64,000 nucleotides of DNA from Pseudomonas putida. GTDB taxonomy: Bacteria; Pseudomonadota; Gammaproteobacteria; Pseudomonadales; Pseudomonadaceae. Positions within the stretch are counted from its first letter, which is position 1; the number at the start of each line of letters is the position of its first letter. Below, piece after piece: positions 3,736 through 14,131 of this stretch. The translations under genes and the position numbers were made by a program. Location: contig CP124529.1 in NCBI GenBank assembly GCA_029953615.1, positions 4,216,501 to 4,280,500 of the forward strand, in the 5' to 3' direction. The notes under the pieces were generated by a model that searched no databases, had not been told where the DNA came from, and saw only the letters and a program-made list of their open reading frames with translations.

Positions 3736-4746
<1,011 letters not shown>

Positions 4747-4762
4747 TCTGGTCTACGCATTG

Positions 4763-4843
4763 TTGTACCATTTTTCGGGAGTTTGGGGCGTTTTTGGCGT
4801 GACGGTAGTGCGATGTACCACCGCCAGCCACGCTTGTACCACC
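4763..4843 (+). repeat. Three TGTACCA(CC) direct repeats, possible integrase arm sites
   Basis: TTGTACCA at 4763-4770, ATGTACCACC at 4813-4822 and TTGTACCACC at 4834-4843 are direct repeats packed between the dusA start and the integrase remnant. Short repeated arm-type sites next to the integrase start are typical of tyrosine recombinase attachment regions. Calling them arm sites is an inference. Confidence 0.5.
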
Positions 4844-4851
4844 GGAAATCC

Positions 4852-5165
4852 ATGGCAACGATCAGAGCAACGAAAAAGGCTGATGGAACGGTTAGCTATA
4901 CCGTCCTGATCCGCCTCAAGAAAAAGGGTGTCCTATTCTACCAACAGTCCCAGATATTCGCCTGCAAGCAGGCTGCTCAAGCCTGGGCGAAGCGACGAGA
5001 GACCGAGTTGGCTGAGCCCGGCGTGATCGAACGCGCCAACCGTGGTGGCACGCAGTCAAGAACATGATCGATCGCTACCTGATGGAAGCCGAGAAAGCCC
5101 GGCCGCCGGGTAAGACGAAGCGGCAGGCCCCCTGGCTATCAAGAACAGTTACCCTGGCGAAGTGC
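4852..5165 (+). pseudogene. N-terminal remnant of a dusA-type tyrosine integrase
   Basis: From the ATG at 4852 the frame reads MATIRATKKADGTVSYTVLI and continues into YQQSQIFACKQAAQAWAKRR. This looks like the arm-binding N terminus of a site-specific tyrosine integrase. The frame breaks near 5045-5055. The continuation (MIDRYLMEAEKARPPGKTKR) is in another frame from about 5064 and breaks again near 5130-5145. Only about 100 of the usual 350-400 residues survive, with no catalytic R-H-R-Y domain. It is adjacent to dusA and reads away from it, as in dusA-integrated islands. It is not expected to be functional. Confidence 0.75.
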
Positions 5166-5454
5166 ACCGCTTTGGGTCTATCCGACTGGCAGGGTGGCCG
5201 CTTTCTGCCAAAAGCTGCCCTTCGTAAACAGACAAAAATCGGCCAAAAGTGGACTTCAGCTGAGCACAAATGAAGCACACTGGCGTGTTGTTGCCCACGT
5301 TGCCCCAGATGCCTTCTTAGGTGTAAGACTCCAACGCAAAACCGCGTGGGTCAGGTTCACCGAACCCTCGTTCACCAAACACCGTGGAGAAACGCAGGAG
5401 CATGGGGGGGTGTCTGCCAACAGACTGAAACAGCTTCGCGCTGGTGTACTTCCT
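5166..5454. other. Non-coding scar downstream of the integrase remnant
   Basis: This 289-base stretch has no convincing reading frame. It contains CCGCTTTGGGTC and CCGCTTTCTGCC-like segments of the sort scattered between Pseudomonas genes, and no recognisable terminal repeats. It is probably debris left by decay of the island that carried the integrase. Confidence 0.4.
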
Positions 5455-6909
5455 CTACCGCTCGACTCGGAGTTTTGGCTGTGCCCGAAGCGTGATTGCT
5501 ATGGCGAATTCAGCCAGTTTGCCGAAAGGTGCTCTGAGCAGGCTAGGTAGGCTCCAGCGACCTTGGACGAATATTCCCTTGGCATGGCTCAGGGAGCGAA
5601 AACCCTCGATGCCGTGGTAGGCCCCCATACCGCTCGGCCCTACACCGCCGAATGGTAGATCATCCACGGCAACGTGCAGCAGAGTGTTGTTAATGCCGAC
5701 ATTCCCGGATGTGGTGCGCTTGAGGACAGCCTCGCTGTCGGCATCCATATTGCCGAAATAGTAAAGCGCGAGTGGGCGCGGCCTGGCGTTGATGTAGTCG
5801 ATTACTTCGTCGAGAGAGCGGTAGGTACGAACCGGTAGCAGTGGGCCGAAGATTTCCTCCTGCATGACCAACGCATCGTCTTCGGCTCCCACGATCAACA
5901 CCGGAGCCAATGTCCGCGATCGTTCTGCCGCACGCTCTGGGGTCACTCCTACCTCGATCACGTCTGCTCCCTTTGCGTGTGCGTCTTTGATGAGCGTATG
6001 CAACCGCATGTAATGCCTGTCGCTGATAATCGAGGTGTAATCGGGACTGGTTGGGCCTTGCGGGTAAGAACGGGCAACAGCGTCGCGGTACTGGGTAATG
6101 AATTCGCTCAAGTCGTCTTCATGAACCAGGGCGTAGTCCGGTGCAACGCAGGTCTGACCAGCATTGGATAATTTGCCGAAGACGATGCTTTCCAATGCGC
6201 TACGCCCTGCATGGCCTGGCGCCAAGACCACGGGACTCTTGCCGCCCAGTTCAAGGGTAAGCGGTACCAGATTGTCACTGGCAGCGCGCATTACCATTCG
6301 ACCTACCTGTGTGCTGCCGGTGAACAGCAGGTGATCGAACGGAAGGCTGCTGAAATAGGCGCCTGTCTCAGGGCCGCCGAGTACCACTGCTACCTCATCG
6401 GCAGAAAAACAGCTCGCCAACATGCGCTGAATCAGTGCACTGGTGCGTGGCGTAAGTTCGGAAGGTTTGATCATCACCCGGTTGCCAGCCGCGAGCGCAG
6501 TTGCCAATGGGATGAAGGTTAGGGAGAACGGGTAGTTCCAAGGCGCCATCACTCCGATCACACCTTTGGGCTGGTACTCCACATAGGCGCGGCCGGCGCG
6601 ATGAAACGCCGCGACATGACGACGTTCGGGCTTCATGAAACGGCGCAGGTGTCGCAATAAGTAGTCAATGGACTGAACCACGCCAAGCAGTTCCATGATG
6701 TCGGTTTCATACCTGGAGCGATTGCCGAAATCAGTACTGATCGCATCCTCTACTTCACGCCTGTGAGCGAGAACCACCGCGCGCAATTTGACCAGGTTGG
6801 CCCTGCGTCGTTTAAGGCCGGGTGGCCCGTCGTTAAGAAATGCCCTTCTTTGTTGGTCGAGCATACTGGCGGTGTCGATAGCTGGGGAGTCCACTACAGC
6901 GATGGTCAT
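5455..6909 (-). CDS. Coniferyl-aldehyde-dehydrogenase-like aldehyde dehydrogenase
   Basis: The 484-residue NAD(P)-dependent aldehyde dehydrogenase has the oxyanion-hole motif MAPWNYPF, FTGSTQVGR in the Rossmann part, the general base Glu in LELGGKSPVVL and the nucleophile Cys in SNAGQTCVAPDY. The overall form matches the CalB/coniferyl aldehyde dehydrogenase group, which oxidises aromatic and aliphatic aldehydes. The ATG at 6909 is preceded by GGGAGG and overlaps the stop of the upstream flavin oxidoreductase as ATGA, so the two are translationally coupled. A longer in-frame start exists at 6954 but lies inside the upstream gene. The true substrate is not shown. Confidence 0.88.
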   Translation of the reverse strand: MTIAVVDSPAIDTASMLDQQRRAFLNDGPPGLKRRRANLVKLRAVVLAHRREVEDAISTDFGNRSRYETDIMELLGVVQSIDYLLRHLRRFMKPERRHVAAFHRAGRAYVEYQPKGVIGVMAPWNYPFSLTFIPLATALAAGNRVMIKPSELTPRTSALIQRMLASCFSADEVAVVLGGPETGAYFSSLPFDHLLFTGSTQVGRMVMRAASDNLVPLTLELGGKSPVVLAPGHAGRSALESIVFGKLSNAGQTCVAPDYALVHEDDLSEFITQYRDAVARSYPQGPTSPDYTSIISDRHYMRLHTLIKDAHAKGADVIEVGVTPERAAERSRTLAPVLIVGAEDDALVMQEEIFGPLLPVRTYRSLDEVIDYINARPRPLALYYFGNMDADSEAVLKRTTSGNVGINNTLLHVAVDDLPFGGVGPSGMGAYHGIEGFRSLSHAKGIFVQGRWSLPSLLRAPFGKLAEFAIAITLRAQPKLRVER

Positions 6910-8162
6910 CTTGCGCCTCCCAGGCCGTTGTAATGCGAAGACTTTTCTATCCATTTCCGATATTGGCGAGTGCGAAAGGCCATGGAGAGCTGTTGCAGAA
7001 TCAGCGCGCGTAACGGTGAAACTCTTGGGTCGGGCTTTTTAGCCTGACTAAGTTTGCGCAATTGAAACTTCACTACTGCCATGTTCGCCAAGGCTGCAAT
7101 GGCTTTGTTTTTCCATGTGATAGGCGGCAATTGCGGGGCATTGTCTTCGCCCTGCAACCAGTCTCGAGGCAAGTGCGGATCAATGGCTAACGCCGTTCCG
7201 ATGCCCACCATGTCCACACCACTCTGCACGACGCTTTCGGCCACCGGGCGGCGGCGTATACCGCCGGTGACCATCACCGGCATTTTGGCGACGGTCTGGA
7301 GATCACGGGCGAACTCGACGAAATAAGCTTCGCGAGCCAGGGTGCGACCATCGCGCGCGTCACCCTGCATGGCGGGTACTTCGTAGCTGCCTCCCGATAA
7401 CTCCACCATGTCCACGCTCAGGTCGTTGAGCAACTCAACCACCTTTTTTGCGTCATCGACGGTGAATCCTCCACGCTGGAAATCGGCGGAGTTGAGTTTG
7501 ACCCCCACTGCAAAATCCGCAGAAACCACGGCCCTGACCGCCTTGACGATTTCGAGCAACAGGCGCGCCCGGTTTTCCAGAGAGCCGCCCCACTCGTCCG
7601 TCCTTTGATTGGTCAACGGCGAAAGGAACTGGCTCAACAAATAGCCATGGGCGGCGTGGATTTCCACACCGGTGAATCCGGCTTGTTCGCCCAGGCGTGC
7701 GGTGTTCGCAAAGCGCTGAATGACTTCTTCTATCACGCCAGGGGTCATCGCGTGAGGCGTGGCGAAACGCTTGGACAGTTTTCCCAAATCCAGCGGCACG
7801 GCCGACGGCGCCCAGGTTTTTTGCCCAAGGTTGGACTGCATCTGCCGACCTGGGTGATTTATCTGCAACCAGAACTGCGCACCACCGGATCGACCAATAC
7901 GCGCCCAGCGCATGAACTTGTCCAGTTGTTGATCGTCCTGCAATACCACGCCACCCGGTCCGGTCATGGCGCGGCCGTCGACCATCACGTTGCCGGTGAT
8001 AATCAGGCCGGCACCACCGTCGGCCCACGCTTGATAGAGACGCATGAGTTCCTCGGACGGCGCTTGGTCGGCATCCGCCATGTTCTCTTCCATGGCGGCT
8101 TTGGCGATTCGGTTCTTGACGGTCGAACCGTTGGGAAGCATCAGGGTGTCGAACACATTCAT
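6906..8162 (-). CDS. NADH:flavin oxidoreductase (old yellow enzyme family)
   Basis: The 418-residue FMN TIM-barrel protein carries GVEIHAAHGYLLSQFLSP followed by NQRTDEWGGSLENRARLLLE, the hallmark of the OYE/NADH:flavin oxidoreductase family. Such enzymes reduce activated C=C bonds in enals, enones and quinones. It lacks the C-terminal iron-sulfur and second flavin domains of 2,4-dienoyl-CoA reductase. The ATG at 8162 has GAGGA upstream. The gene is first in a two-gene operon with the aldehyde dehydrogenase and is preceded by a MerR-type promoter at 8191-8221. Confidence 0.88.
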   Translation of the reverse strand: MNVFDTLMLPNGSTVKNRIAKAAMEENMADADQAPSEELMRLYQAWADGGAGLIITGNVMVDGRAMTGPGGVVLQDDQQLDKFMRWARIGRSGGAQFWLQINHPGRQMQSNLGQKTWAPSAVPLDLGKLSKRFATPHAMTPGVIEEVIQRFANTARLGEQAGFTGVEIHAAHGYLLSQFLSPLTNQRTDEWGGSLENRARLLLEIVKAVRAVVSADFAVGVKLNSADFQRGGFTVDDAKKVVELLNDLSVDMVELSGGSYEVPAMQGDARDGRTLAREAYFVEFARDLQTVAKMPVMVTGGIRRRPVAESVVQSGVDMVGIGTALAIDPHLPRDWLQGEDNAPQLPPITWKNKAIAALANMAVVKFQLRKLSQAKKPDPRVSPLRALILQQLSMAFRTRQYRKWIEKSSHYNGLGGAR

Positions 8163-8190
8163 GGAGCAGTCCTCAACTGGATATGAGGCC

Positions 8191-8221
8191 ACCTTAAGAT
8201 TGAAGTCAGCTTTAAGGTCAA
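8191..8221 (-). promoter_or_regulatory. MerR-type promoter/operator A (flavin oxidoreductase operon)
   Basis: On the minus strand TTGACC (8221-8216) and TAAGGT (8196-8191) are separated by exactly 19 bases. The core TTAAAGCTGACTTCAA matches three other sites nearby. A 19-bp spacer is the signature of promoters activated by MerR-family regulators. Confidence 0.7.
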
Positions 8222-8237
8222 CACCTTTTTTTCCAGG

Positions 8238-9314
8238 TCAATCCATCCTCATCTGGCCAGACCCTGGCAAGTGCGTCACCAGATTGGCGCCCAGCAGCTG
8301 GGCGGGCGTATAAGCGCCGCCAGTCGGGCGCACCTGTAGTAGGTAGTCGACCACGGCCAACGCAGCATTGATCGTCAGGGTGTACACGTTCGCTGTGTGT
8401 ACGCGTGCGACTTTGCAGTCACCGCGAGCGTTTCGGGCCTCACCCCACACATAGGTGCCTTGATCGGCACGCTTTTCCTGATCCGGGCCGACTACTGTCT
8501 TGCCGATGCGCCTTGAGCAGACTCTGCACGAAGGACAAAACCAACAGCGGACGAATGAAATTGGCGAATCAGGCGCCGCGAATCATCCCCGCTGAGCCTG
8601 GAATAAACACTTCGATATTGGCAATACCAGTGGTGCCAAGCTGTGGAAACGTCGCCCCAAGGAATGGTCATGGCCAATTTCTCTCCGGCGCCAAAGTCGA
8701 TACGCCGTACCCGATACGCCAGCGGTACCGAGACAATTTTGCCGTCACGACGAACCTTGCCGCCCTGCGCCATGCCTTTCAATCGAAGTATTGGCAGTAC
8801 CGGGTGAAAAGCTCGAGCGCGAATCAAACCCCAGCGCCAAATGCGTTGCATCCGGCAGTGCGTTTTTCAATACGGCAGCGACACAGTCAGTCGGCACCAC
8901 ATCAAAGCCGACGCCGGGGCAAATGACCACGCCCGCCGCACGCGCCCGTTCACTCAAGGACTGGGCGTGCTCGAATACGGCAATTTCGCCGGTGATGACC
9001 AGGTAGTGCGCATTGACGCGCAAGCAGGCTTCCATCATAGGGGTGGCGGTCGCTGAAAACGGCCCTGCGCAATGCAGAATCAAGCCATGGCCTTTGATCT
9101 GAGCAAGCAACCGCACTTGATCGTCCAGTCCGAACACTCGGGTTTCAAGGCCCAGCTCCCGACCCAGGGCTTCGACCTTGTCACGGTTGCGTCCCGCCAG
9201 CACAGGCTTAAGCCCACGCTTTACAGCATCACGAGCGATCAACTCGCCGGTGTAGCCATTGCCGCCATAGATCATCCATTTGAACTGCATATTCAGGTTG
9301 TCTTGCTGACTCAT
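8238..9314 (-). pseudogene. Broken saccharopine-dehydrogenase-like / trans-acting enoyl reductase gene
   Basis: The N-terminal 170 or so residues read well from 9314 or the internal ATG at 9290: MIYGGNGYTGELIARDAVKR with a Rossmann glycine motif, then GPFSATATPMMEACL. The frame breaks near 8770-8790 and resumes elsewhere with KVRRDGKIVSVPLAYRVR and AMTIPWGDVSTAW. It breaks again near 8645, meets an in-frame TGA near 8570 after GSAGMIRGA, and shifts once more before the intact C-terminal part (GTYVWGEARNA to QMRMD, 8238-8470). With at least four lesions this is a decayed gene of about 358 codons. It has its own MerR-type promoter at 9372-9402. Confidence 0.8.
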
Positions 9315-9371
9315 GCATTGCTCCGGACGGTATTGATGACGTGCGTTATTGCCTTGCCCAATCAGTGCCAG

Positions 9372-9402
9372 ACGCTAGCGTTAAAGTCAGGTTGAAGGTC
9401 AA
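9372..9402 (-). promoter_or_regulatory. MerR-type promoter/operator B (saccharopine-dehydrogenase-like pseudogene)
   Basis: On the minus strand TTGACC (9402-9397) is followed after 19 bases by TAGCGT (9377-9372). The core TTCAACCTGACTTTAA matches the other three sites well in its right half. Confidence 0.6.
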
Positions 9403-9448
9403 GCGGAAGTGAGCAACTGCCGACGGAAATTATTTGCAGCAGTGGGGA

Positions 9449-9479
9449 TTGACCTTAAAGCGAGGTTTAAGGTGAGCAT
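9449..9479 (+). promoter_or_regulatory. MerR-type promoter/operator C (DJ-1/PfpI gene)
   Basis: On the plus strand TTGACC (9449-9454) is followed by the core TTAAAGCGAGGTTTAA. ACCTTAAA and TTTAAGGT form a perfect inverted repeat. The hexamer after 19 bases (GAGCAT) is a weak -10. The site lies 31 bases ahead of the start codon at 9510. Confidence 0.6.
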
Positions 9480-9509
9480 GCACTGACCTGCTTGATTGAT
9501 GGAACCCGG

Positions 9510-10313
9510 ATGATGCTCAAGACCTTTGTTTCTTATGCGTTGGTATTGATAGGTAGCGCTTTCATGACATTGGCAAATGCTGACACCGCCCCTTCCACAA
9601 TGACTGCCAAGAATCGCCAAATTCTGGTGATTCTGACCAATCACGCCAGCTATCCATCACGAACCGATACCACGGGGTTGTGGCTGACTGAGCTGACGCA
9701 TTTCACCGATGTAGTGGAGGCGGCTGGCTACAGCACAGTTTTTGCCAGCCCCAAAGGCGGTGCGGTGCCACTGGACGAGCGCAGCCTCGGTTGGCTGTAC
9801 ATGGACAAGGCCGCCCGTGAGCATTTGCAGTCCCCGGCCTTTCGCGCTCGCCTGCAAAGCACGCTGCCGATCGCCGATATCGATCCGTCCCAGTTCGGCG
9901 TCATCTACTTCACCGGGGGCCATGGAGTGATGTGGGATTTCCCCAATAATCCCGACCTGCGTCATGTCGCCGAAACCATCTACAACCAGGGTGGCATCGT
10001 CTCGGCCGTCTGCCATGGCGTAGCGGGTCTGTTGGATCTGAAGGATGAACAAGGCCAGTTGATCATCAAGGGCAAGAACATCACCGGCTTCTCTAATCGC
10101 GAAGAGCTGTTCTCCGGCATGAAAAGCCAGGTTCCCTTCTTCCTTGAGGACAAGTTGGTGAGCCAGGGTGCGCGGTACCGCAAGGGCTGGCTGCCATTCA
10201 CGTCATTTGCCATCACGGATGGAAGGCTTGTCACCGGCCAAAACCCTCAATCGCCCAAAGCCGTAGCTGAAGCCGTGATGGCGGTGCTCTCTGGCGAAAA
10301 CGTAACTCGCTGA
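9510..10313 (+). CDS. Secreted DJ-1/PfpI (class I glutamine amidotransferase-like) protein
   Basis: The 267-residue protein begins with a hydrophobic signal sequence ending near LANA. It then has a DJ-1/PfpI fold: ILVILTNHASYP, then VIYFTGGHGVMWD, the nucleophile elbow IVSAVCHGVAGLLDL with Cys followed by His, and ITGFSNREE. This order resembles the Hsp31/glyoxalase-III branch, which acts on methylglyoxal or other reactive carbonyls, although that activity is not shown here. Two adjacent ATG codons (9510 and 9513) are possible starts; a TTG at 9492 is less likely. It is followed after 37 bases by the acetoacetate-decarboxylase-like gene, probably in one operon ending at the terminator at 11364. 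Confidence 0.8.
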   Translation: MMLKTFVSYALVLIGSAFMTLANADTAPSTMTAKNRQILVILTNHASYPSRTDTTGLWLTELTHFTDVVEAAGYSTVFASPKGGAVPLDERSLGWLYMDKAAREHLQSPAFRARLQSTLPIADIDPSQFGVIYFTGGHGVMWDFPNNPDLRHVAETIYNQGGIVSAVCHGVAGLLDLKDEQGQLIIKGKNITGFSNREELFSGMKSQVPFFLEDKLVSQGARYRKGWLPFTSFAITDGRLVTGQNPQSPKAVAEAVMAVLSGENVTR

Positions 10314-10350
10314 ACCCTGAAGTAGTTCCCACCCCCCGGAGAAAGACCGA

Positions 10351-11355
10351 TTGAAACTCGCAAGCGCCGTATTAACAGGATTGCTATTCAGCTCAATTGC
10401 CAACCATGTGTTGGCGGGGACGCCTGAAATGCTCAGCCCGACTGAAACCAGCACAATCAATATCGCAGGCCACACAGTGCCGGTCGTCAAGGGCGGCCTG
10501 TACGACCGTTATCGCTCGAACCCGCCCTTGTCGGTGATTGCAGCAGAACTGCCGGATGTTGATGTGAGCTGGTTCAAAGGACTGGAAAAGCACAAGGTCG
10601 ACATTGGCTTCGAGTCATACTCCCCGAACTTTTACTACCAGAACAGTCGCGTTACGGCGGTCTATACGGCCGATCTGGACGCACTGCGGGCCCTGATGCC
10701 TCCGGAAATAATGGCCACCGTGCAACCCCTACAAGTCTGGCCGGGCCGGGGTTTGATCGCATTCACCGCGTACACCTATGAACATTGCGATAACGACGCC
10801 TATAACGAAGTGGCCGTGTCGATCATCACCAACAAGCCCGGCAAATCGAATCTGGGGCCGTTCACGCTGATTGGCCAGTCGATGTCTGGCGATTTCTGGG
10901 GCTATGTGCTCAAGCTGCCGGTCAATACAGAGCTTGCGCGGGTTCGTGGTGTCGTCGGCTATAACCTGCCGAAATGGCTGACCGGGATTGACCGCAAAGA
11001 AGGTGCGCAATCGGTGGTCTATGACATCACCGACAGCCAGACCGGCAAGGTCGATGTGTCCTTCAAAGGGAAGAAGCTAAATGGCCTCTCGCATGATGTC
11101 GATATCGTCACCAGCAGCTTCACCAACCTCGATCATCAGGGCCGACTGGTCTATGGGTACGCTGTTTCCCGCCAGCTCAGCCACGGCTCCAGCCGCGATG
11201 CGGATTCGGCCACCCTCACTCTGGGTGACGGCAGCCTGTCGAATTACCTCCGAGCCCTGAAACTCGGGAAAATGATGAAGTATGAATACGTGCCTGAGTT
11301 CCAGAGTGCGCTCTACGCGCCTAAACCGCTTGCTACTCTGGTTGGCGAGCGCTGA
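10351..11355 (+). CDS. Exported acetoacetate-decarboxylase-family protein
   Basis: The 334-residue protein has a TTG start at 10351 preceded by GGAGAAAG, and a signal peptide ending near VLAG. The body (SRVTAVYTADLDALRALMPP, LIAFTAYTY, EVAVSII, then a beta-rich region with VVGYNLPKWL) matches the acetoacetate decarboxylase fold. Proteins of this fold include enzymes other than decarboxylases, and the catalytic lysine of the true enzyme cannot be placed by eye. Predicted export with the preceding DJ-1-like protein suggests a shared periplasmic role. Confidence 0.7.
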   Translation: MKLASAVLTGLLFSSIANHVLAGTPEMLSPTETSTINIAGHTVPVVKGGLYDRYRSNPPLSVIAAELPDVDVSWFKGLEKHKVDIGFESYSPNFYYQNSRVTAVYTADLDALRALMPPEIMATVQPLQVWPGRGLIAFTAYTYEHCDNDAYNEVAVSIITNKPGKSNLGPFTLIGQSMSGDFWGYVLKLPVNTELARVRGVVGYNLPKWLTGIDRKEGAQSVVYDITDSQTGKVDVSFKGKKLNGLSHDVDIVTSSFTNLDHQGRLVYGYAVSRQLSHGSSRDADSATLTLGDGSLSNYLRALKLGKMMKYEYVPEFQSALYAPKPLATLVGER

Positions 11356-11363
11356 AACCTGTT

Positions 11364-11402
11364 ACGCCCGTCAGGCCTCGGAGGCCTGGCGGGCGTTTTT
11401 TT
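11364..11402 (+). terminator. Rho-independent terminator
   Basis: ACGCCCGTCAGGCCT (11364-11378) pairs perfectly with AGGCCTGGCGGGCGT (11382-11396), allowing one bulge or wobble, over a three-base loop and is followed by a run of T. It lies nine bases after the acetoacetate-decarboxylase-like gene and may also stop the converging merR gene. Confidence 0.9.
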
Positions 11403-11413
11403 CGTGGAAGACG

Positions 11414-11848
11414 TTACCGCACGTTTGCCGGAAGCTTGGCCCCCCTTTTTTTCCGCAAACGATTTATCAGCATTTGCGCATTGTCCGCACACGCCATGCC
11501 TTCGGGCTTACCCTCGATGCCCTTGATGACGAGCAGAAGTTGCGCTTTATTCTGGGCTAGCCGTTCCTGTAGAACACCGATTTCCTCGACCTTTTGCTTG
11601 AGCCCACTGAGCAACTCATCGTGCTGCCAGCCGCTGGCATTCATCGGCATCAATTGCCGGATTTCTTCCAATGAAAAACCCGCCGCCTGCGCTCCGGTGA
11701 TGATCTCCAGAACCCACTCGGTATCAGGCGCGTAGTCCCTGTAGCCATTTGCTTTGCGTTCGACGGACCTGATCAGGCCGCTTGCCTCATAGAACCGGAT
11801 GCGTGACGGCGCCAATCCGCTGATTTTCGCCAGTTCGCCTATTCTCAT
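11414..11848 (-). CDS. MerR-family transcriptional regulator
   Basis: The 144-residue protein opens with the winged-helix signature MRIGELAKISGLAPSRIRFY followed by EASGLIRSVERKANGYRDY, then a long dimerisation helix (GLKQKVEEIGVLQERLAQNK). It has only one cysteine cluster candidate (GMACADNAQ), so a metal sensor of the CueR or MerR type is not obvious and a small-molecule or redox signal is possible. The ATG at 11848 was chosen because the HTH starts there; 62 upstream codons in frame show no protein-like pattern. The gene sits 20 bases from operator D and is convergent with the DJ-1 operon. Confidence 0.9.
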   Translation of the reverse strand: MRIGELAKISGLAPSRIRFYEASGLIRSVERKANGYRDYAPDTEWVLEIITGAQAAGFSLEEIRQLMPMNASGWQHDELLSGLKQKVEEIGVLQERLAQNKAQLLLVIKGIEGKPEGMACADNAQMLINRLRKKRGAKLPANVR

Positions 11849-11868
11849 AACCCACCCTGAAAAACCTA

Positions 11869-11899
11869 TTGACCTTAAAGTTGACTTTAAACCTAAAGT
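11869..11899 (+). promoter_or_regulatory. MerR-type promoter/operator D (between merR and hydrolase)
   Basis: TTGACC (11869-11874) and TAAAGT (11894-11899) are separated by 19 bases, and the core TTAAAGTTGACTTTAA is a palindrome except for its two central bases. This is the best of the four sites. It points toward the alpha/beta hydrolase, leaving an untranslated leader of about 180 bases, and it probably also overlaps the merR promoter. Confidence 0.75.
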
Positions 11900-12085
11900 C
11901 ATCGGGCGGCCAAGCAGCACAAATGCGACGTGTTGCTCAGCCGTTATGGAAGTCATGGGGCAGGCGCAACAATCCACAATCGCGCCCTCTGAACCGCCTA
12001 TCGGATGGGCTGCACTTTGTTCATTCAAGGCCATGCTCCGAACGCGATTCGGTATAGGCCCTCACTTCATTCTGGAGATACGAAC

Positions 12086-12916
12086 ATGGGGTATGTCACT
12101 ACGCAAGACGGTGTTGAAATATTTTACAAAGACTGGGGGCCACGCGATGCCCAGGTAATCTTCTTCCACCACGGATGGCCACTCAGCGCGGACGATTGGG
12201 ACGCGCAAATGCTCTTTTTCCTGGCCAACGGTTTCCGGGTTGTAGCACACGACCGACGTGGTCATGGGCGATCCAGCCAGGTCTGGGATGGACACGACAT
12301 GGATCACTATGCCGATGACGTCGCGGCAGTGGTTAATCATCTCGGCGTGCAAGGCGCTGTCCATGTCGGTCACTCCACCGGCGGAGGTGAAGTCATCCAT
12401 TACATCGCGCGCCACGGTGAAGACCGAGTGTCGAAAGCAGCCATCATCAGCGCTGTGCCGCCGCTGATGGTTCAGACCCCGAGCAATCCTGGCGGCCTGC
12501 CTAAATCAGTTTTCGACGACTTGCAGGCACAACTACAGGCGAATCGCGCACAGTTCTACCACGACGTTCCAGCAGGGCCTTTTTACGGCTATAACCGCCC
12601 GGGTTCAAAACCGTCCGAGGGCATCGTCTGGAACTGGTGGCGACAAGGCATGATGGGCTGTGCAAAGGCACACTATGACGGGATCGTGGCGTTTTCTCAG
12701 ACCGACTTCACCGAAGATTTGAAGAGCATCAAGATTCCTGTCCTGGTGATGCATGGTGATGATGACCAGATCGTTCCTTATGAGAACGCCGGCGTTCTTT
12801 CAGCCAAACTTCTGCAAAACAGTACGCTCAAAATCTACCCAGGCTTTCCGCACGGAATGCCTACAACCAATGCCGATACGATTAACGCCGATCTGCTCGC
12901 ATTCGTAAGGAGCTAA
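12086..12916 (+). CDS. Alpha/beta hydrolase (non-haem chloroperoxidase/esterase type)
   Basis: The 276-residue protein matches the cofactor-free haloperoxidase/esterase group: FFHHGWPLSADDWD (oxyanion region), HDRRGHGRS, nucleophile serine in VGHSTGGGE, acid Asp in LVMHGDDDQIVPY and a C-terminal His in PGFPHGMPTT. Natural activity is likely ester or lactone hydrolysis; perhydrolysis is often a side reaction. The ATG at 12086 has GGAG ahead; 27 in-frame upstream codons are not protein-like. It is driven from operator D and ends before a strong hairpin at 12922-12948. Confidence 0.88.
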   Translation: MGYVTTQDGVEIFYKDWGPRDAQVIFFHHGWPLSADDWDAQMLFFLANGFRVVAHDRRGHGRSSQVWDGHDMDHYADDVAAVVNHLGVQGAVHVGHSTGGGEVIHYIARHGEDRVSKAAIISAVPPLMVQTPSNPGGLPKSVFDDLQAQLQANRAQFYHDVPAGPFYGYNRPGSKPSEGIVWNWWRQGMMGCAKAHYDGIVAFSQTDFTEDLKSIKIPVLVMHGDDDQIVPYENAGVLSAKLLQNSTLKIYPGFPHGMPTTNADTINADLLAFVRS

Positions 12917-12921
12917 TCAAT

Positions 12922-12948
12922 ATAGGGCGGTGGGTAACCCCGCCCTAT
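12922..12948 (+). terminator. Hairpin after the hydrolase gene
   Basis: ATAGGGCGG (12922-12930) pairs with CCGCCCTAT (12940-12948), five bases after the hydrolase stop. There is no long T-run, so termination is likely but not certain. Confidence 0.6.
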
Positions 12949-13261
12949 TCCAAAGCCACCAAATCGACGCGTTTAAATTCAGCGAAATGCCGTCAAAAAT
13001 GTGCCATATAGATAATTGCTTTTTTATCCGAAAGAGGTATTTGGTGAGTGTCTACTTTGGGCCGAAAGCGGTCATTTTCATGTAATGGATTTGGCAGTTC
13101 GGCCATTCCATCTAGCCCATTTAGGGCGCGGATCAATAGCCCTCTGCCGGTCACCTCCGGCAGAGGGCACCAGTTTCCGCCAATCTCCGCCAAAAACGGA
13201 CGAAGGTCTCGCAGATGGCATACCTCAGAACCGCTGGAGGCCATCTCTGCCCACCAGCCAC
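12949..13261. other. Gene-poor 313-base spacer
   Basis: No convincing gene is seen. A segment near 13050-13080 contains GGGCCGAAAGCGGTCATTTT, a motif type commonly scattered in Pseudomonas intergenic DNA. CCTCTGCCGG (13141-13150) and CCGGCAGAGG (13157-13166) form a perfect inverted repeat. This spacer is a possible right edge of the accessory block that starts at dusA. Confidence 0.4.
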
Positions 13262-14131
13262 CTACTTTAGCGGCACGTAGATATCCGTTTGCCATTCCTC
13301 CAGCGGCGTTTCCGGATACACGCTCAAGTAGTGAAAGAACAACGGATGATCACGCAGTTCCTCGGTACTCGAAGGCAACCAGTCCCGATAAACCGGATAG
13401 ATGGTTTCACCAATATAGTCAGGCGACCCTGTATGCCGAATCACGGCGCAGCGGCCCGCCGGGATGATGCGTTCGTGCACGCCGAAATCATTCGGCTGCA
13501 CGGCTTCGTCTATCTCGCCACACACAGCGAAGCGAAAGGCGTGCGCCGGGGTGGTATCGGGGTTGTCGTAGGGAATGCCGAAGGTTCGGCTGCTGGCCAC
13601 CGGTGACTGACCGCTTTGAATGCGCCATTGGCGAAAACGCGCGACGCTTTCACTGACCAGGCTGGGCGCCCCTTGGTGTTCGAGCGCGGCCACATGAGTT
13701 TCGGCGAAATCCACGATACGGATCTGCATGGTAATGCTCCTGGAATGGTGGGGAACAATGAAAACCGCACTCCAGGCCTGCCAGATCGGGGCCTTGGCGA
13801 ATACGCTCGGCGCCATGCCAAAAGCACGCTTGAAGGCCCTGGAAAAGGCTTCGGGGCTTTCGAAGCCGGCGTCGAACGCTGCTTCCAGCACCGAGATGGC
13901 AGGCGAAGCGACCAGTTGATGCGCCGCGCGTCGCAGCCTCATCAGTTGCACATACCGTGAAACCGGAATGCCCATGTATGCCGTGAACTGCCGATGAAAG
14001 TGAAAGGCCGAGAAATTGGCGATACGGCTCAGGGCATTTACCGACAGGTCCCCTTCGAGGTGGCTGTCGATGTAGGCAAGCACGGCTTTGAACCGTTTTG
14101 CGTAGGTCGGGTTGTGCTGTGAGTCAGTCAA
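13262..14131 (-). CDS. AraC-family regulator with GyrI-like ligand domain
   Basis: The 289-residue protein has an N-terminal AraC/XylS DNA-binding domain (two HTH motifs, including LSVNALSRIANFSAFHFHRQ and the second around AAFDAGFESPEAFSRAFKRA, residues about 10-115). A GyrI/SbmC-like effector-binding domain follows (ETHVAALEHQGAP to the C-terminal EEWQTDIYVPL). This Rob/SoxS-with-GyrI architecture is used by regulators that sense amphipathic or drug-like compounds. The neighbours are unrelated, so its target is not apparent. Confidence 0.9.
   Translation of the reverse strand: MTDSQHNPTYAKRFKAVLAYIDSHLEGDLSVNALSRIANFSAFHFHRQFTAYMGIPVSRYVQLMRLRRAAHQLVASPAISVLEAAFDAGFESPEAFSRAFKRAFGMAPSVFAKAPIWQAWSAVFIVPHHSRSITMQIRIVDFAETHVAALEHQGAPSLVSESVARFRQWRIQSGQSPVASSRTFGIPYDNPDTTPAHAFRFAVCGEIDEAVQPNDFGVHERIIPAGRCAVIRHTGSPDYIGETIYPVYRDWLPSSTEELRDHPLFFHYLSVYPETPLEEWQTDIYVPLK

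Follow-up and report, generated by a model that had tools for sequence, protein, structure and literature searches.

What governs the four similar promoters that stand among the enzyme genes beside dusA in Pseudomonas putida, and to which signal might they respond? The genes lie in a stretch of 64,000 nucleotides (CP124529.1, positions 4,216,501 to 4,280,500; hereafter the window, whose numbering is used throughout) and code for an OYE-family FMN ene-reductase, an aldehyde dehydrogenase (ALDH), a broken saccharopine-dehydrogenase-like protein, a DJ-1/PfpI protein, an acetoacetate-decarboxylase-like (ADC-like) protein and an alpha/beta hydrolase, together with a MerR-family regulator. Our comparison with other genomes suggests that this regulator very probably switches on the four neighbouring promoters, whose membership in one regulon is well supported at the level of sequence, and the combination of regulator, DNA switch and enzymes turns up in rearranged form in the sequences of many other bacteria. 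A role in carbonyl defence would fit both the enzymes and an invariant cysteine in the regulator.

The 31-bp motif and its co-occurrence with the regulator

Re-reading of the sequence confirmed the original prediction of four sites composed of TTGACC, a shared core and a second hexamer, and the spacer is 19 bp at all four by direct reading. Site A (8191-8221, minus strand; TTGACC-TTAAAGCTGACTTCAATCT-TAAGGT) is the putative MerR-type promoter/operator of the OYE-ALDH operon and lies 28 bp before the start codon of OYE, a distance that is typical of relatives. Site B (9372-9402, minus strand; TTGACC-TTCAACCTGACTTTAACGC-TAGCGT) would serve the broken saccharopine-dehydrogenase-like gene, site C (9449-9479, plus strand; TTGACC-TTAAAGCGAGGTTTAAGGT-GAGCAT) the DJ-1/ADC operon, and site D (11869-11899, plus strand; TTGACC-TTAAAGTTGACTTTAAACC-TAAAGT), between merR and the hydrolase gene, the alpha/beta hydrolase. 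The central dyad that had also been claimed was overstated: a partial dyad is present in all four sites, and the versions in A and B are poor (the two 8-mer arms match at 5/8 positions in A, 4/8 in B, 6/8 in C and 7/8 in D, counted with fixed arms; a dyad-centre scan had placed the centres of A and B elsewhere). The surroundings of A and D (8191-8230 and 11860-11899) form a 40-nt inverted repeat that is 80% complementary, and the A or D promoter may have been copied from the other.

The sites stand out clearly from their background. Searching with the core of site D and up to three mismatches recovered three of the four window sites, 100 shuffles yielded no match, and a weight matrix built from 104 distinct sites in loci of other genomes scored A, B, C and D at 51.6, 41.8, 33.7 and 53.5, against a maximum of -7.0 over 600 shuffled upstream regions; the single further place above 8 in the window (8.3) overlaps site A on the other strand. 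Across the whole genome of the strain (5,764,016 bases), the degenerate pattern TTGACCTTMAANNNNNNTTYAA, derived from A-D and so matching them without mismatch by construction, had no other zero-mismatch match and no match with one mismatch. Two mismatches gave two places (one of them the opposite strand of site C) and three mismatches gave 50, and we regard the three-mismatch matches as background because the reversed control gave 42 matches against 56 in total.

The evidence that ties the motif to the regulator comes from 149 Pseudomonas genomes, in which homologues of the MerR protein (E 1e-25 or better) were found as 67 genes in 65 genomes, and the motif, with at most one mismatch, at 141 places in 87 genomes. 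A site lies 0-300 bp upstream of the start of 62 of the 67 homologues. The 65 genomes that hold the regulator contain 114 sites vs 13 reversed-control matches, and the 84 that do not contain 27 vs 27, so that the motif sits at control level without this MerR and is strongly enriched beside the regulator and the enzyme genes. A presence/absence comparison covering the hydrolase orthologues (30 hits that became loci, one per genome, out of 69 genomes with a match) gave a site at 14/20 orthologues in MerR-positive vs 1/10 in MerR-negative genomes (Fisher p 0.005, phylogeny ignored). At six hydrolase loci (L265, L266, L271-L274), an apparent right half of the operator with a -10 box (GACTTTAATCCTACAGT) stands about 105 bp before the hydrolase gene, and these promoters look as if they were eroded operators; L265 and L274 come from genomes holding the regulator.

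Two sets of loci were used for spacing and downstream genes. The named set comprises the best 80 of at least 549 confirmed stretches (Pseudomonas, Cupriavidus, Burkholderia, Ralstonia, Variovorax, Bradyrhizobium, Solimonas and others), and the second set the stretches around 40 of the 67 Pseudomonas regulator genes; some genomes are in both. Exact core sites were counted, and a site was assigned to a family gene when it lay at most 400 bp before it on the same strand. TANNNT follows at a 19-bp spacer in 104 of 123 named sites (two at other spacers from 14 to 24 bp) and in 49 of 54 sites of the second set (three at other spacers), and five local shuffles of the locus stretches produced no motif sites. 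A family gene follows 97/123 named sites (OYE 48, hydrolase 22, ADC 13, DJ-1 12, saccharopine-dehydrogenase-like 2) and 52/54 in the second set (OYE 35, hydrolase 10, DJ-1 4, ADC 2, saccharopine-dehydrogenase-like 1), which makes OYE the commonest gene behind the motif, at a nearly constant distance from site to start codon (mostly 27-30 bp). Among the 28 sites without a family gene in this first count (26 of them named), 16 (14 named) stand before a different type of member or a more distant relative which the thresholds or the start rule had missed, namely ADC-like, DJ-1 and another saccharopine-dehydrogenase-like protein (eight proteins were scanned against Pfam) as well as NAD epimerase-type and PAF-acetylhydrolase-like proteins. 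These spacing and target counts, with the genome co-occurrence counts, refute an origin of the motif by chance or from a repeat. Co-occurrence and locus context together support the idea of one MerR-type regulon of four promoters under the adjacent MerR.

The regulon appears to be modular. The regulator with OYE alone is the commonest single form (24/80 named and 22/40 other loci), and near the regulator OYE is found at 51/80 and 37/40 loci, ADC at 37/80 and 10/40, the hydrolase at 29/80 and 11/40, DJ-1 at 24/80 and 9/40, and the saccharopine-dehydrogenase-like gene at 9/80 and 5/40. The place of ALDH in the gene set first proposed was overstated: it was present near the regulator at 5/80 and 0/40 loci and is ruled out as a core or general member. 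All four sites are present in nine of nine chosen relatives with the cluster; site D is unaltered in the five with the hydrolase beside merR and altered in three of the four without it (L093, L152 and L160, not L161). An additional motif site between DJ-1 and ADC in L154 and L161 indicates that this operon can have a second regulated start. In the Caballeronia plasmid pNK84, MerR, ADC, saccharopine-dehydrogenase-like, MerR and a DJ-1-type gene stand in a row, with good sites about 70 bp before ADC (score 48.7) and about 40 bp before the DJ-1 gene (score 30.8).

Twenty sites distant from a regulator gene were chosen for fetching. Eight of these precede genes of the set in MerR-positive genomes and lie either 40 kb or more away from the regulator or on a different contig (ADC in L140, L145, L146 and L147; hydrolase in L142 and L144; OYE in L141 and L143), and two come from regulator-negative genomes (L148, OYE beside a regulator fragment; L149, hydrolase with a damaged -10). 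No target was recognised for three more (L138, L139, L150), and only a piece of ADC is present in L151. The remaining six (L132-L137) adjoin a remoter MerR of about 35% identity and read TTGACCTTCAAGTTG[GA]CTTTAA; the gene downstream in L137 is nitroreductase-like by eye. This remoter MerR possibly heads a sister regulon with nearly the same operator.

The regulator and its single cysteine

The regulator (11414-11848, minus strand, 144 amino acids) matches Pfam MerR_1 (8e-15), MerR and MerR-DNA-bind (8.8e-11) above cut-off. Its model (mean pLDDT 83) has a long dimer helix (76-112), and its best fold match is CueR; CueR, MerR and CadR are the closest relatives by sequence and fold. The winged helix-turn-helix, the long dimer helix and the operators in 19-bp spacers place it in the MerR family. 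Its only cysteine, C120, stands at the start of the last helix and is invariant in all 81 aligned homologues (the window protein and 80 others), 73 of which have no other cysteine, and in 29/29 of a wider Pseudomonas alignment; the scan patterns that found the 80 named loci do not include C120.

Two cysteines bracket the metal-binding loop of CueR, CadR and ZntR. The genome of the strain has 11 MerR_1 matches, the window regulator included, among them one CadR and one CueR, which pass their curated cut-offs (CadR-PbrR 212.5 vs 151.45; CueR 184.3 vs 147.4). The window regulator shares with these the fold, the helix-loop arrangement and the long-spacer promoters, and C120 aligns with their second loop cysteine. 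It differs in that their first cysteine is unmatched, in that its recognised targets are enzymes, and in its scores, which are far under the cut-offs of CueR (59.7 vs 147.4), ZntR, CadR-PbrR and MerR. We reject membership in the CueR/CadR/ZntR group on account of these scores and the lone cysteine. The dyad centre, measured with fixed 8-mer arms, is 8 bp from the -35 box in the window, as in the MerR and HMRTR groups and unlike CueR and CadR with 7 bp (PMC5045206, in part).

SoxR, the operators of which are also AT-rich dyads in long spacers, shares a redox theme with the window regulon, and its [2Fe-2S] cluster needs four cysteines. The one cysteine of the window regulator cannot hold such a cluster, and a SoxR-type regulator is ruled out by this and by the SoxR model (40.5 bits vs a cut-off of 116.9).

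The nearest functional parallels are regulators of carbonyl stress. YraA belongs to the DJ-1/PfpI family. Passages of PMC4776306 and PMC9909328 describe AdhR and NmlR as MerR-family activators linked to carbonyl stress; their targets include an enzyme that handles aldehydes and either an esterase or the cysteine proteinase YraA (adhA, yraC and yraA under AdhR of B. subtilis; adhC and estD under NmlR of H. influenzae). The target set in the window is not the same. The NmlR clade is described as having an absolutely conserved Cys54/Cys52 (PMC4776306, in part), whereas the window regulator has G52 and the invariant C120, position 52 being equated by numbering and not by alignment. Membership in the NmlR/AdhR clade is ruled out by G52, by the rarity of C52 among homologues (3/81 and, in the wider alignment, 9/29) and by the NmlR model score (41.4 bits vs 175). 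The nemR-nemA-gloA system of E. coli similarly places a cysteine-based electrophile regulator over an OYE and a glyoxalase (PMC5297802, in part), but NemR is of the TetR family, unlike the window regulator, which is of MerR type and acts at long-spacer promoters. Searches of open-licence literature, one for the esterase included, showed no description of such a regulon or enzyme set among the papers listed, and an account elsewhere is possible; passages of PMC12274486 and PMC3646685 contain nothing on the window regulon.

Proposed mechanism and alternatives

We consider it likely that the locus is a MerR regulon which is activated by distortion of its promoters and probably responds to an electrophilic inducer by way of C120. 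The motif and its spacing, as well as its association with this MerR and with the gene set, can be read directly from the compared sequences, and repression and activation by distortion are proposed by analogy. A dimer of the MerR-family protein would bind operators A-D, each inside the 19-bp promoter spacer, and without inducer would hold the four promoters in a poorly usable state. According to sections of PMC9909328, MerR promoters have spacers of 19-20 bp and no longer respond when these are shortened, and the kink that an activated MerR-type regulator puts into the dyad brings the boxes near those of a 17-bp promoter. With inducer, the window regulator would likewise kink the DNA and align the -35 and -10 boxes, and OYE-ALDH, the broken saccharopine-dehydrogenase-like gene, the DJ-1/ADC operon and the hydrolase would then be induced together. 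C120 itself is the reason to propose cysteine sensing, and the enzyme set together with the AdhR/NmlR and NemR parallels (PMC4776306 and PMC5297802, both in part) is the reason to propose an electrophile, most probably a soft one (an enal, enone, quinone or dicarbonyl) that would modify C120. The OYE would reduce activated C=C bonds and the ALDH would oxidize aldehydes, DJ-1 would handle dicarbonyls or glycation damage, and the hydrolase and the ADC-like protein may act on esters and on beta-keto or aldol-type carbonyls, by hydrolysis or other conversion.

We also put forward, tentatively, a wider reading that is possible rather than probable, in which the regulator represents an undescribed MerR clade of alpha-, beta- and gammaproteobacteria whose metal-sensor loop has become a one-cysteine (C120) electrophile switch over a modular and partly extracytoplasmic carbonyl-defence regulon. 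Exported DJ-1 and ADC-fold proteins would then meet reactive carbonyls in the periplasm before these reach the cell interior. This reading is slightly weakened by the presence of C52 in nine of the 29 wider homologues.

Several observations weigh against regulation of the whole set by this MerR through C120. A single cysteine is no proof of thiol sensing, and in the nine wider homologues that carry C52 besides C120, all of them beside an OYE gene, the second cysteine may take part in sensing in that part of the clade. Five of the 67 homologues have no site within 300 bp (G074, G062, G097, G081 and G078), no exact core site was found in 7/80 named and 3/40 other loci, and 12 sites precede no recognised gene (two have apparent remnants, of the hydrolase in L173 and of ADC in L162). 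The -10 box of site C (GAGCAT) is weak; the same GAGCAT is kept at the corresponding site in nine of nine chosen relatives inspected. For the hydrolase, 6/20 MerR-positive genomes have an orthologue without a site, and many hydrolase sites had already been included in the count upstream of merR. Genomes related to one another are not independent observations, and there is overlap in genomes between the two locus sets. The remoter MerR beside similar sites could be in cross-talk with the regulon.

The regulon may be real and yet catabolic or biotransforming, with one particular plant or soil compound, an unsaturated carbonyl or an ester, as the inducer that is converted in sequence by the hydrolase, OYE, dehydrogenase and ADC-like protein, with the exported DJ-1 and ADC proteins acting outside the cytoplasm. 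The presence of a hydrolase, an ene-reductase, dehydrogenases and an ADC-type fold in one set is consistent with this, as are the signal-like N-termini of DJ-1 and ADC (judged by eye) and the ADC-superfamily relative MppR, which was crystallised with an aldol-type condensation product according to the structure title. The set is loose, however, and the prevalence of MerR with OYE alone is more in keeping with a stress regulon than with a pathway; neither a transporter nor a growth substrate could be recognised at the sites. We regard the catabolic alternative as rather unlikely.

That the regulator is a CueR/CadR relative which senses a metal through C120 and other ligands, with the enzymes repairing metal damage, is suggested by its kinship with CueR, MerR and CadR, and is improbable given the sole cysteine of 73/81 homologues, scores far under cut-offs that the strain's own CadR and CueR pass, and a set of recognised target genes that includes no metal exporter. 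It is more improbable still that another MerR-family protein of the cell (SoxR, CueR or CadR) controls the four promoters, the adjacent regulator being incidental: the 11 MerR_1 matches and the AT-rich long-spacer operators of SoxR offer candidates, but the motif excess is confined to genomes with this MerR, the 84 others being at control level, and a site stands just upstream of nearly all its homologues (62/67). Duplicated intergenic DNA or chance as the source of the motif, for which the inverted repeat around A and D could speak, is hardly credible against the lack of shuffle matches, the fixed spacing and the recurrence of sites ahead of these genes where gene order and location differ. 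Distortion-activated control by the adjacent MerR is the explanation we prefer.

Genes of the block, their setting and significance

The OYE-family FMN ene-reductase (6906-8162, minus strand, 418 amino acids) matches Oxidored_FMN (PF00724; 2.6e-55; 188.5 bits vs a cut-off of 27) and FMN-protein structures by sequence. The start of the ALDH gene (5455-6909, minus strand, 484 amino acids; PF00171, 6.9e-80) overlaps the OYE stop, and its nearest solved relative by sequence is a steroid aldehyde dehydrogenase (9nxl). The saccharopine-dehydrogenase-like (NADP-binding) gene (8492-9314, minus strand) is indeed broken, as originally described: it consists of the partial frames 8745-9314, with a PF03435 match (9.9e-11), and 8492-8851, without a Pfam match, vs a single open frame of 349-359 amino acids in 11 of 13 other loci checked; in the remaining two (L105 and L161) the anchor search for this frame found nothing.

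On the plus strand, the DJ-1/PfpI protein (9510-10313, 267 amino acids; PF01965, 3.9e-10, 40.2 bits vs a cut-off of 26.6) has its nearest solved structures by sequence among the ThiJ/PfpI, glyoxalase III and Hsp31 types. C168-H169 and E61 are invariant in 14/14 aligned DJ-1 proteins. The catalytic residues of Hsp31 are given as Cys-185, His-186 and Glu-77 (PMC5297802, in part); E61 was set beside Glu-77 without alignment, and the NCBIfam HchA score is 37.8 bits vs a cut-off of 365. The ADC-like protein (10351-11355, plus strand, 334 amino acids) scores below the Pfam ADC cut-off (3.1e-4; 20.8 bits vs 29.8), and no sequence relative was found among solved structures under E 0.5. In Foldseek its model (mean pLDDT 79) finds structures of acetoacetate decarboxylase, MppR and Swit_4259 (11 ADC-superfamily chains; E 3.4e-9 to 5.3e-7; TM 0.40-0.50 by query and 0.50-0.63 by target), and by fold the protein belongs to the ADC superfamily. 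An invariant PKW stretch (23/23) contains K208, which may be equivalent to the Schiff-base lysine of the ADC superfamily; the model has low confidence at 191-210. Both the DJ-1 and the ADC-like proteins begin with signal-like segments, as judged by eye.

The alpha/beta hydrolase (12086-12916, plus strand, 276 amino acids), recognised as such by Pfam, falls into the esterase/non-haem haloperoxidase group, with phmmer matches to an esterase (1zoi, 1.4e-163) and a non-haem chloroperoxidase (4dgq, 4.2e-153). Among the NCBIfam matches listed, none was above cut-off for the hydrolase, DJ-1 or ADC proteins. The strain has a second hydrolase, 84% identical to that of the cluster (G000:C1:281499-282326, L275), without a motif site in the surrounding 2.1 kb (best score -36.2). 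A hydrolase gene with 85% DNA identity is also found on a mobilizable enterobacterial plasmid of Citrobacter portucalensis (NZ_CP046349.1, 6153-6983; L243), where it adjoins a catalase gene and the 13-kb stretch has no motif site.

The block from 5411 to 13071 has a counterpart in gamma proteobacterium L18 (KI547165.1), to which it aligns at 95%. The flanking DusA, TalB, AraC-type and sterol-desaturase-like proteins had no match above 150 bits in 120 other stretches (about 9-18 kb), so its surroundings differ elsewhere and the block is accessory beside dusA. Within 4600-13400 there were no repeats of at least 20 nt that could delimit the dusA-side block. Just beyond dusA, a short frame (4852-5067), without Pfam recognition, weakly matches the start of phrog_22184 (E 7.5e-5, function unknown) and resembles an N-terminal remnant of a dusA-type integrase.

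The physiological role of OYE-type ene-reductases is often unclear, and the locus offers for them a testable regulator, operator and gene set, joining DJ-1 and an orphan ADC-fold family to what would be the same signal. The tight 31-bp motif lends itself to regulon mapping in newly sequenced genomes and might find use as a biosensor for carbonyls. Should C120 prove to be the sensor, the locus would show how a single cysteine can turn a metal-responsive MerR scaffold into an electrophile switch.

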